A stretch of DNA of 41,593 bases, taken from Acidobacteriota bacterium (GTDB lineage Bacteria; Acidobacteriota; Polarisedimenticolia; J045). Under the pieces are notes generated by a model. That model saw nothing but the letters and a program-made list of their open reading frames with translations, was not told the DNA's origin and searched no databases. The stretch is from positions 1-41,593 of the forward strand of contig JANTFM010000003.1 in NCBI GenBank assembly GCA_024763475.1, read 5' to 3'. This document shows, in pieces, positions 31,335 through 41,444 of this stretch; the stretch's first letter is position 1, and each line of letters starts with the position of its first letter. Position numbers and translations under genes: made by a program.

Positions 31335-31490
31335 CTCAACTCACCCAGGTTGATTGCGGGCTCTCAACCCACCCAGGTTGATTTCGAACAGCCTGATGGC
31401 GAGCACCTAGTCTGATTGTGCATGCCTCTCAAGTCACAAGATTTGTTAGTTATTAGCTATTGACTTTCAACTCACCCAGGTTGATTGCAA
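31335..31490 (+). repeat. Three copies of a CAACYCACCCAGGTTGATT repeat
   Basis: Copies at 31335-31357, 31363-31383 and 31465-31487 share TCAACYCACCCAGGTTGATT. Each is a short inverted repeat (TCAAC...GTTGA). The 301-base gap between the DUF5916 gene and the AhpD-like gene (31263-31563) contains these plus an A/T-rich stretch (31438-31465), and nothing else that I can support. Confidence 0.75.
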
Positions 31491-31563: not shown

Positions 31564-32100
31564 TCAGTCGGGATCGTCTTCCACGCCCAGAGCGTCGGCC
31601 ACGCGGTTGATGTAGTTGAAGTAGGCCGCAACTTGGACGGCAGCGTGAATCTCCACATCTGAGGCACCGGCTGCCTTGAGAACCTCGACATCTGCCTTGC
31701 AGCACGCGGCGGGCGAGAGCGTCATTTTCCTGGCGTAGGCGAGCAAGGCGCGCTGGGTGGGGTCCAGGGCAGGGGCCGGGTCAGCGGAAACGAGCGTCTC
31801 GGTCTTGTGGGGGGGAGCCTCGGCACGGAGGTCCACGAGATGGGCCTCGAGTCAGTAGTAACACTCGTTAAGGCGCGAGACCGTGACCCCGATCAACTCG
31901 CGGAACCAGCGCGGCAGGGGTGAGGACGGATGCATCACCGACGCCTGGTAGAGACCCAGGGAAGCGTAGAGGACATGCGGCTCGGCGGACTGAGCCCGCA
32001 CGATCTCGAAGACCCGTCCACTACGGCGGATGGCCTCGTCGTAGAGTTTGCGAAGCCGCCCCTTGGCCTCGGGGGGGGAGATCGTGTGAATCCAAGTCAT
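31564..32100 (-). CDS. AhpD-like peroxidase-related selenoprotein (TGA = Sec83)
   Basis: 178 residues when the in-frame TGA at 31852-31854 is read as selenocysteine; the ORF track shows it as two fragments in one frame. Start ATG 32100 has AAGGA upstream and gives MTWIHTISPPEA, typical of the carboxymuconolactone-decarboxylase/AhpD 'peroxidase-related' family. The family active site is E-x11-C-x2-C-x3-H. Here Glu68, eleven residues, Cys80, Tyr-Tyr, TGA83, Leu-Glu-Ala, His87 fits exactly with Sec replacing the second Cys. After the TGA, the normal C-terminal half continues (LSPAACCKADVEVLKAAGASDVEIHAAVQVAAYFNYINRVADALG). Function by family: thiol/selenol peroxidase or disulfide-exchange partner. 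It is divergent from a peroxiredoxin with the same feature. The alternative is a pseudogene with one nonsense mutation. Confidence 0.85.
31828..31848 (-). promoter_or_regulatory. Possible bacterial SECIS hairpin of the AhpD-like gene
   Basis: Starting four bases after the TGA: GAGG pairs with CCTC and inner CCA with TGG, leaving a five-base loop TCTCG. An alternative CTCG/CGAG fold exists nearby. Bacterial SECIS elements are poorly conserved, so this is tentative. Confidence 0.3.
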
Positions 32101-32133
32101 CGCTCGTCCTTCTCGCTCCCGGGAAGCAGTCAC

Positions 32134-32157
32134 TTACCAAACGGGCTACAATGGTAA
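32134..32157. promoter_or_regulatory. Inverted repeat in the divergent selenoprotein promoter region
   Basis: TTACCA and TGGTAA are separated by 12 bases between the two divergent genes; a possible operator or hairpin. The remaining intergenic DNA to 32332 shows no clear promoter. Confidence 0.25.
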
Positions 32158-32332
32158 TACAGCGATCGCGGACACCGCAAAGAGGCCAACAGCGCCAAGC
32201 CGCGTACGCTGGGGATCTAGAAGAGGTCCCGGTGTGTCGGAGGAAGGACTCCTGAGAGTTTCCGGCCGACGGTTGTGTGAGCAGTTCTCGCGCGCCTGAC
32301 CTGCGAGCGCGAGGCCCCTGGGAGATGGGAAC

Positions 32333-32896
32333 ATGCGCGGATGGAATCAATGGCTCTGGACAGTAGCGTTGGTGTTTGTGCTCGCGGGAGTCTCCGCCAC
32401 CCTGGCGGCAGAGGGCCGCACGAAGAAAGCGAAGGTTGGCATGAAAGCTCCAGACTTCACCTTGGTAGGGAGTGATGGGAAGACCTACCAACTCTCGGAC
32501 TACCTCGGCAAGCAGGCCGTGGTCATCGCCTGGTTCCCACGGGCGTTCACTGGCGGCTGAACAGCCCAGTGCAAGGCGCTCCGTGAGAGCGGCGAAGCGA
32601 TCCAGGAATTCAATGTGGCGCTGTTCGCAGCCAGCATCGATGCTCCAGAAACCAACCGGAAATTCGCAGAATCCCTGGGCTTGGGTTATCCGATCCTCAG
32701 CGACCCCGACAAGAAGACTGCCAAGGCCTACGGCGTGCTCAAGACCCTAGGCCTCTACGCAGCGCGCCACACCGTGTACATCAGCGCCACAGGCGAGATC
32801 CTGCTGATCGACAAGAATGTCAAGCCGACCACCGCCGGGGCGGACATGATCCGGCAGCTGGAGAAACTCAAGATTCCCCGCAAGACCGAGAAATGA
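32333..32896 (+). CDS. Exported peroxiredoxin-like selenoprotein (TGA = Sec76)
   Basis: 187 residues when the in-frame TGA at 32558-32560 is read as Sec; the ORF track splits it into 75 and 93 codons in the same frame. GGGAGATGGGAAC precedes the ATG. A signal peptide (to about residue 26, ATLAA) is followed by an AhpC/TSA-Bcp-type thioredoxin fold: GMKAPDFTLVGSDGKTYQLSDY, then WFPRAFTGG-U-TAQC. The P-x3-T-x2-C peroxidatic motif has Sec at the catalytic position, and Cys80 four residues later could resolve (U-x3-C). The fold continues with LFAASIDAPETNRKFAESLG, PILSDPDKKTAKAYGV and RHTVYISATGEILLIDKNV. The role is inferred as periplasmic peroxide reduction. It is divergent from the AhpD-like selenoprotein, a plausible redox partner family, although that protein lacks a signal peptide. 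Confidence 0.87.
32577..32591 (+). promoter_or_regulatory. Candidate bacterial SECIS hairpin of the peroxiredoxin gene
   Basis: A perfect 5-bp stem CGCTC / GAGCG with loop CGTGA begins 16 bases after the TGA. Its distance and a G among the first loop bases match the known loose bacterial SECIS pattern. Confidence 0.5.
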
Positions 32897-36437: not shown

Positions 36438-36458
36438 ATTGTATTAGATGATATCTAA
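36438..36458 (-). promoter_or_regulatory. Candidate promoter and Fur-type operator upstream of the PQQ dehydrogenase
   Basis: TTAGAT-GAT-ATCTAA (36444-36458) is an inverted repeat with 6-base arms. Directly abutting it, on the minus strand, is TACAAT (36443-36438), a good -10 about 70 bases before the dehydrogenase ATG. The site also lies at the position equivalent to the operator in front of the intact Fur-family gene at 39499. Confidence 0.4.
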
Positions 36459-36483
36459 AGGTATCCGTCGTCTAATTCCGACG

Positions 36484-36560
36484 ATACACAACGAGGCAGC
36501 CCCTCTCAAGGAGCGTGGAATCAGCCCGTTCGCGCAACGCGTCGCTATTGCGCAGCAAGT
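36484..36560 (+). pseudogene. Decayed N-terminal fragment of a Fur-family regulator gene
   Basis: The frame reads NEAAPLKERGISPFAQRVAIAQQV, matching [24 protein letters not shown] of the intact regulator at 39499. The start codon aligned to ATG is ACG. Homology stops after the first helix region (about residue 27), so the DNA-binding wing and metal domain are gone. Upstream similarity includes two TCTAA elements at the same 11-base spacing as the intact locus, so promoter and N-terminus were duplicated together. No further gene is supported up to 36781. Confidence 0.75.
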
Positions 36561-36781
36561 CAGGCCTTGCGGCTGGAAGGGGTATGTAGCGGCCCTTCGG
36601 CCCCTAGCTCGGATGTCGAGCGACGCTCGAGCCCGTCAATGTGGCCTGGCTCCAATCGCACCCCTTCCCGGGCACGCAAGCCGCACGAGAGGATCGTAGT
36701 CAAGCAAACGCGAAACACCGAAGTGGTCACGGCGTGGAGCTAACCCCACACCTCCTCCTTGCTGCGCGCGATCGGCAGACT

Positions 36782-39301: not shown

Positions 39302-39476
39302 ATGAAAGAGTTCTCGAAAGACCTTCCTTGCCACTCTGCTTGGCGCTCTTGCCGCTGCCGGCTGCCTCGTTCTGCTTGGCGTCGCGGTCGTCACCATCAC
39401 CAGCGCATCCAGAAAGATCGAGGTCGAGGATGGAAGCTGGCGATTCGGTATTGTCCTTGAACTTGACAATGTCTAA
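39302..39476 (+). pseudogene. Small exported protein gene with a one-base frameshift
   Basis: ATG 39302 has AAAGGAG seven bases upstream, but the frame is lost within two codons at ATGAAAGAG. Removing one A from the AAA gives a clean 57-residue frame: MKSSRKTFLATLLGAL, AAAGCLVLLGVAVVTITS, then a hydrophilic tail ending IVLELDNV and TAA. This has a lipobox-like AAGC or a single TM segment. Either the gene is broken, or the run of A is a sequencing error, or slippage occurs. The stop codon overlaps the operator-like repeat of the following Fur-family gene. No family recognised. Confidence 0.5.
39462..39476. promoter_or_regulatory. Candidate operator before the Fur-family regulator
   Basis: CTTGAC-AAT-GTCTAA, a 15-base imperfect inverted repeat 23 bases before the ATG. 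It shares the TTAGAY-N3-RTCTAA pattern with sites at 36444 and 39940. A second TCTAA lies 17 bases further on. Confidence 0.4.
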
Positions 39477-39498
39477 ATTTTACCCTAGTCTAACACCA

Positions 39499-39894
39499 AT
39501 GAAACGCAACGAGGCAGCCCTTCTCAGGGAGCATGGCATCAACCCGTCCGCACAGCGTGTCGCGGTCGCCCAGCACGTGCTACACACCGGAGAGCACCCG
39601 TCGGCCGACGAGGTGTGGAAACGGGTGCGAGAGCGCTTTCCGCAGATCTCGCGTGCAACGGTCTACAACACGCTCAACCTGTTCGTGGACAAGGGCTTGC
39701 TGCGGCGCTTCGTGCTGGTCGAAGGCCGCGTCGTCTTCGATCCGAGGGTCGAGAATCACCACCATTTCCTCGACGAGGAAAGCGGAATGCTCCACGACCT
39801 GCCTTGGGACGCGCTGGAGGTTTCCGGGGTCACTCAACTCAAGGGCTTCGACGTGCGCGAATTCCAGGTGGTCCTGCGGGGAAAGAAAGCTTGA
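39499..39894 (+). CDS. Fur/PerR-family metal-dependent regulator
   Basis: 131 residues from ATG 39499, chosen because family homology begins at [20 protein letters not shown]; the track start at 39328 adds an unrelated leader. The winged helix is clear: [36 protein letters not shown]. The metal domain has [18 protein letters not shown] (His87-89, then acidic ligands) and no CxxC pairs, so the structural zinc site of Fur/PerR is missing, as in Irr-like and some PerR-like members. It sits 92 bases upstream of the catalase gene, which it probably controls as a peroxide- or iron/haem-responsive repressor. A truncated relative lies 3 kb upstream. Confidence 0.9.
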
Positions 39895-39939
39895 AGTCGG
39901 TGCCTGCTGCGGAAGAGGAAGTTTTTTTTGGCCATAAAG

Positions 39940-39954
39940 ATAGACGTTATCTAC
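39940..39954. promoter_or_regulatory. Candidate operator before the catalase gene
   Basis: ATAGAC-GTT-ATCTAC, agreeing in 5 of 6 bases per arm with TTAGAY-N3-RTCTAA, 32 bases before the catalase ATG. It follows a run of eight T at 39922-39929. Confidence 0.4.
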
Positions 39955-39986
39955 TTCTAGATCTTATCCACACAGGAGCAAACGCC

Positions 39987-41444
39987 ATGTCCAAGAAAGC
40001 AAAGTTGACCACGGCCGGAGGTATCCCGGTCCCTGACAACCAGAACAGCCTGACGGCCGGCGAGAGGGGGCCCCTCCTTGCGCAGGACTGGCAGCTCTTC
40101 GAGAAGCACGCGCACTTCAACCGTGAGCGAATCCCCGAACGGGTCGTCCACGCCAAGGGCTCCGCAGCCTACGGAACGCTCACCATCACCGGAGACATCA
40201 CGACGTACAGCAAGGCGAAAATTTTCGCGGAGATCGGCAAGCAAACCGAGTGCTTCCTGCGCTTCTCCACGGTTGCAGGAGAACGGGGGGCCGCCGATGC
40301 GGAGCGGGACGTGCGCGGCTTCGCACTGAAGTTCTACACCGAGGAAGGAAACTGGGACCTTGTCGGCAACAACACTCCCGTCTTTTTCGTGCTCGACCCC
40401 TACAAGTTCCCGGACTTCATCCACACCCAGAAACGGGACCCGAAAACAAACCTGCGCAATCCAACTGCGATGTGGGACTTCTGGTCGCTCTCGCCCGAAA
40501 CTCTCCACCAAGTCACGATCCTGTTTTCGGACCGGGGTCTGCCGCGAAGCTATCGCCACATGAATGGCTACGGCTCCCACACCTTCAGCCTCATCAACGC
40601 CGAAGGCGAACGATCCTGGGTCAAGTTCCATTTCAAGACCGAGCAAGGCATCGAGTGCCTTAGCAACGAGGAGGCCGCGAAACTCGTCGGCGAGGACCGT
40701 GAGAGCCACCAGCGTGATCTCGCCGACGCCATCGAGCGTGGTGACCACCCGCGCTGGACCTTCTACGTGCAGGTGATGCCCGAGGACGATGCCGAGAAGG
40801 TGCCCTACAACCCCTTCGACCTGACGAAGGTCTGGCCTCACGGCGACTACCCGCTGATCGAGGTCGGCACCCTCGAACTCAATCGCAATCCGGAAAACTA
40901 CTTCGCAGAGGTCGAACAGTCGTGCTTCTCTCCCGCGAACGTCGTGCCAGGAATCTCGCACAGCCCCGACAAGATGCTCCAGTTCCGGATCCTCTCCTAC
41001 GGGGATGCCCACAGGCACCGCCTCGGCGTGAACTACGAGTCTCTGCCGGTGAACCGGGCTCGCTGCCCGGTCCATAATTACTATCGCGATGGCGCCATGC
41101 GTTTCGATGATAACGAGGGCGGATCCGTGAACTATGAACCCAACAGCTCAGGAGGCCCGATCGAAGTGCCGGAGGTCAAGGAGCCGCCGCTCGAAGTGCG
41201 CGGCGCGGCGGACCGCTACAATCCGCGTGAGGACAACGACCACTTCTCGCAGGCAGGTGATCTGTTCCGCCTGATGAGCGCCGAAGAACGTCAGCGCCTC
41301 GCCGCAAATATCGCTTCTGCGATGCGAGGCGTTCCCGAGCCCATACAGCAACGGCAGTTGGGTCACTTCTACAAGGCCGATCCCGAGTACGGCCAGGCGG
41401 TAGCCGAAGCCCTTGGGCTACCCGCTGCAGACGTCCGTCATTGA
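39987..41444 (+). CDS. katA: Monofunctional haem catalase (small-subunit, clade 3 type)
   Basis: Dismutates hydrogen peroxide. 485 residues from ATG 39987 (AGGAG eight bases upstream); the ORF-track start at 39615 runs through the regulator gene in another frame. Catalytic His55 ([12 protein letters not shown]), the distal Asn of [11 protein letters not shown], and the proximal haem-ligand Tyr near 337 in [14 protein letters not shown] are present. Its length and the region preceding the Tyr fit small-subunit catalases binding NADPH. It is controlled presumably by the Fur-family gene upstream. The 3' end, including the stop, is the start of a 70-base tandem repeat. Confidence 0.97.

Follow-up and report, generated by a model that had tools for sequence, protein, structure and literature searches.

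Strong support for selenocysteine at the active sites of two neighbouring redox genes in an Acidobacteriota genome

Two head-to-head genes, each with a TGA at its redox residue

We analysed a stretch of 41,593 nucleotides from the genome of an uncultured Acidobacteriota bacterium of the class Polarisedimenticolia (the window; contig JANTFM010000003.1 of assembly GCA_024763475.1), in which an AhpD-like gene and a peroxiredoxin (Prx) gene lie divergently on opposite strands, each with one in-frame TGA (Table 1). The AhpD-like frame is likewise opened by a GTG at 32133, and numbered from this codon the TGA is residue 94 in the motif E79-x11-C91-x2-U94-x3-H98, which matches the E-x11-C-x2-[CU]-x3-H pattern of TIGR01926. 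The read-through translation scored 105 bits against TIGR01926, above the curated cut-off of 81.8, and also matched the CMD domain, and the halves on either side of the TGA fit this one family. Judged by eye only, its N-terminus does not resemble a signal peptide.

The read-through translation of the second gene scored 107 bits against AhpC-TSA, again with both halves in one family; it carries the P-x3-T-x2-[CU] pattern of PF00578, within the motif T73-x2-U76-x3-C80. Its N-terminus is signal-peptide-like, also by eye only. The protein lies below every NCBIfam cut-off, including those of the Bcp/PrxQ subfamily (PRK09437, NF006960; 73.5 bits against 140, and the Cp-x4-Cr spacing is absent) and of PrxU (NF040737; 46.7 bits against 270). 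An earlier note on this DNA had placed the two TGA codons at the redox residues of E-x11-C-x2-U-x3-H and P-x3-T-x2-U, and both the coordinates and the motifs were correct.

Table 1 Features of the divergent gene pair (window coordinates).
Feature	Position	Strand	Details
AhpD-like (CMD, TIGR01926) predicted selenoprotein gene	31564..32100	-	Start ATG 32100, conserved; stop TGA 31564-31566
Candidate bSECIS hairpin, AhpD-like gene	31814..31834	-	GGACCTC-CGTGCC-GAGG(C)TCC; apical loop 24 nt past UGA
Single in-frame TGA, AhpD-like gene, proposed Sec codon	31852..31854	-	C-Y-Y-U-L-E-A-H; second residue of CxxC pair
Divergent intergenic region between both conserved starts	32101..32332		232 bp; no sigma-70-like site found
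Prx (AhpC-TSA, Bcp/PrxQ-like) predicted selenoprotein gene	32333..32896	+	ATG 32333; stop TGA 32894-32896; signal-peptide-like N-terminus
Single in-frame TGA, Prx gene, proposed Sec codon	32558..32560	+	U76, peroxidatic residue; T-G-G-U-T-A-Q-C
bSECIS hairpin, Prx gene	32575..32593	+	Stem CGCTC/GAGCG, apical loop CGTGA 21 nt past UGA

A scan of the whole window for TGA read-through frames gave no further convincing candidate by eye. Elsewhere in the window, the intergenic short repeat CACCCAGGTTGATT occurs at 31342-31486, with three perfect copies downstream of a DUF5916 gene, and at 30-97, with three near-copies at the window start (seven found against 0.2 expected). At 39448-41444, some 7 kb away from the two selenoprotein candidates, a Fur-family regulator, possibly PerR-like, adjoins a catalase gene. 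A short ORF at 36448-36699 begins with a sequence (NEAAPLKERGISPFAQRVAIAQQV) similar to the N-terminal end of the Fur-family protein encoded at 39448, and is possibly a decayed copy of that gene.

Decoding of the in-frame TGA codons

We compared the codon aligned with each TGA among relatives. For the AhpD-like gene, 36 of 39 relatives across the phylum have TGA at this codon, two have Cys and one has Ser; the Ser homologue (L195, CTYSLAHH) indicates that residues other than Sec and Cys can occur there. A scan of GTDB species genomes gave 460 relatives of the Prx gene, and in the comparison set, made of the best 80 of the 460 loci plus class members, the aligned codon of distinct relatives is TGA in 61, Cys in 27 and another residue in none. 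Prx orthologues of the class at E < 1e-45 each contain a single TGA, always at the aligned codon, and all close relatives of both genes repeat the in-frame TGA pattern. The alignment through the TGA proposed in the earlier note thus sets it against Cys in both families, and TAA or TAG, which that note had held would count against its reading, never occurs at either site. On the Prx tree about 11 changes between Sec and Cys are needed, at least three of them forced by well-supported branches. Two gp11 Acidobacteria MAGs (L092 and L134) each carry two Sec-peroxiredoxin genes at most about 850 bp apart.

The host genome (4.05 Mb in 484 contigs, 85% complete) was searched for the Sec machinery, as the earlier note had suggested, and selA, selB, selD and selC were all found in it: a tRNA-Sec with anticodon TCA (67.7 bits), SelB (310 bits), SelA (533 bits) and a Cys-type SelD (362 bits). 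Moreover, selA is present in 39 of the 41 genomes of the host's class. A genome-wide reassignment of TGA, for example to Trp, would also make an in-frame TGA readable. However, TGA is also the terminator of both genes and therefore still means stop in this genome, with no change to the overall code; the residue found in orthologues is Cys and never Trp, and tRNA-Sec and SelB are present. The comparative evidence refutes reassignment, to which we assign a negligible probability.

Two other loci of the host genome, sampled through PF00578 only, have a TGA at a redox site. An AhpC-like second peroxiredoxin (L198, G000:C115:1988-2383) has it at the peroxidatic position (DFTFVUATE) and is probably another selenoprotein. 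A ResA/redoxin-like domain (L208, G000:C70:12148-12507) has it in the motif FGUGGC and is a probable UxxC-type selenoprotein.

The bSECIS-type hairpin is where SelB delivers Sec-tRNA. In the published model it lies 16-37 nt after the UGA with a G among the first two nucleotides of the loop (PMC13188914), and the Prx hairpin agrees with this model. Its loop in the Sec genes is 5 nt long, usually CGTG[AC], and starts at a fixed distance of 22 nt after the TGA. The five inner stem pairs form in 97-100% of the 62 Sec genes against 37-89% of the 27 Cys orthologues, and stems of at least 5 bp occur in 59 of 61 Sec relatives against 3 of 27 Cys orthologues. Compensatory double changes (CG/GC, CG/TA and GC/AT) occur in the stem of the Sec genes, and when partners were slid by 1-3 bases as a control, pairing over the inner seven pairs fell to 31-67%. 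At +6 to +8, wherever the amino acid is kept within the class, its codon does not vary (TCG-CTC-CGT), and the SECIS stretch shows lower codon entropy than other positions (p = 0.005). In four Sec-Prx genes (L092, L103, L114 and L134) a Leu to Phe change at +7 is coupled with Ser to Asn at +10 and the SECIS pair is kept (C-G to T-A), a coupling in which the altered protein sequence may be a consequence of the RNA structure.

The AhpD-like candidate, 7 bp with a bulge and the loop CGTGCC, also fits the bSECIS model. Its comparative case appears weaker and consists mainly of one almost invariant Leu codon (CTC) in the hairpin region and of a hairpin whose position varies among family members, lying nearer the UGA in more distant relatives. 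Taken from the window sequence alone, neither hairpin is significantly stronger than those of synonymous shuffles. Rfam gave no match in the window at the gathering threshold and, near both genes at E up to 10, one chance snoRNA-like match only. We consider the SECIS case convincing by comparative evidence only, strong for Prx and weaker for AhpD.

A single interruption in each otherwise open frame is also what would be seen if both genes were pseudogenes with one nonsense mutation each, or carried sequencing errors. Chance or sequencing error is ruled out, since the TGA recurs at this codon in independent genomes that share 34-73% identity. In dozens of them the catalytic codon is TGA, never TAA or TAG; the frame is undamaged before and after it, the host genome encodes the Sec machinery and the SECIS covaries. 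These comparisons refute both readings, which we regard as wholly improbable. In all, the use of TGA for Sec at the active site of both genes, the selenoprotein pair of the earlier note, is strongly supported by selA/B/C/D, by pairs of Sec and Cys orthologues and by the conserved Prx SECIS.

The head-to-head arrangement

The earlier note went further and proposed a dedicated divergent module for Sec-dependent peroxide detoxification, perhaps serving periplasm and cytoplasm. In a fuller form of this reading, the pair would be co-regulated from a shared control region and would split the labour between the two compartments. The short distance between the starts (232 bp), the redox selenoprotein nature of both genes, and the Fur-family regulator and catalase about 7 kb off would suit such a module. 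However, the scan between the genes found no promoter-like or shared site, and the adjacency is not kept across genomes. Among 396 Acidobacteriota genomes, close relatives of the AhpD-like gene are found in 29, of Prx in 59 and of both in only eight (G000, G035, G078, G111, G212, G225, G266 and G343). Most genomes carry just one of the two. The two genes share a contig only in the window's own genome and lie on different contigs in all seven others. No AhpD gene was found near Prx in any of the best 80 of 460 loci, with flanks of up to 10 kb where contigs permitted; contig ends and the 85% genome completeness bound this test. Neither gene has conserved neighbours, and the genes flanking the pair in the window are absent near the relatives except for one partial BlaR-type match.

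This lack of conservation largely refutes the module, which we consider very unlikely. Its periplasm/cytoplasm element fits the signal-peptide-like N-terminus of Prx and the lack of one in the AhpD-like protein, both judged by eye only. On these genome comparisons we take the adjacency to be a local accident: with high confidence, these are two ordinary, independently inherited selenoprotein genes that stand head to head by chance in the host genome.

Known relatives, proposed chemistry and significance

Resolution in Bcp/PrxQ enzymes needs local unfolding. Bcp-type structures align to our Prx without gaps and have their resolving Cys one residue later, and the U-x3-C spacing, as opposed to the C-x4-C of Bcp/PrxQ relatives of known structure, is a real, mildly unusual difference. 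One tentative and rather doubtful possibility is that Prx represents a secreted, mainly Sec-using subfamily of Acidobacteriota, Planctomycetota and Verrucomicrobiota with a distinct selenium-tied resolving geometry, in which U and C, one helical turn apart, would possibly form the selenenylsulfide without local unfolding.

By analogy with their families, the secreted Prx would reduce peroxide by the U76 selenolate, and the resulting selenenic acid would be resolved by C80 before re-reduction by a thioredoxin-like donor. The cytosolic AhpD-like enzyme would rely on a selenenylsulfide between C91 and U94, with protons relayed by E79 and H98, and would reduce hydroperoxides or a partner protein.

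Selenoproteins of the AhpD-like type (TIGR01926, CxxU) were published in 2005 from the Sargasso Sea (PMC1088965) and are listed in Table 1 of PMC13188914. They belong to the same family and have the same CxxU motif, with Sec for the second catalytic Cys; the protein described here differs only in species and sequence, and no functional difference is visible. Cys enzymes of solved structure (3c1l (Mlr4105), 2pfx and 6k40) match by profile over nearly the whole length and have the same E..CxxC..H core, but with Cys where the AhpD-like protein has Sec. Peroxiredoxin selenoproteins of the PF00578/COG1225 Bcp type (TxxU) have been published since 2005 (PMC1088965, PMC2398784, PMC13188914) and share with our Prx the AhpC-TSA fold family, T-x2-U and Sec at the peroxidatic position; the secreted-type N-terminus sets ours apart. 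A GOS read in which a Prx-like 1 gene adjoins an AhpD-like 2 gene (PMC2398784) likewise places a Sec-Prx type beside a Sec-AhpD type. In contrast to the pair described here, its Prx is of another subfamily (UxxC); the orientation is not given, and our pair is not conserved.

Both enzyme families are thus already known in selenium form, and the two genes are correct and useful for annotation rather than surprising. Standard gene callers will either break both up or overlook them. These Acidobacteriota very probably use Sec in antioxidant-type enzymes, and the Prx family, with about 11 inferred changes and a SECIS almost only in the Sec copies, is a good natural set for the exchange of Sec and Cys.
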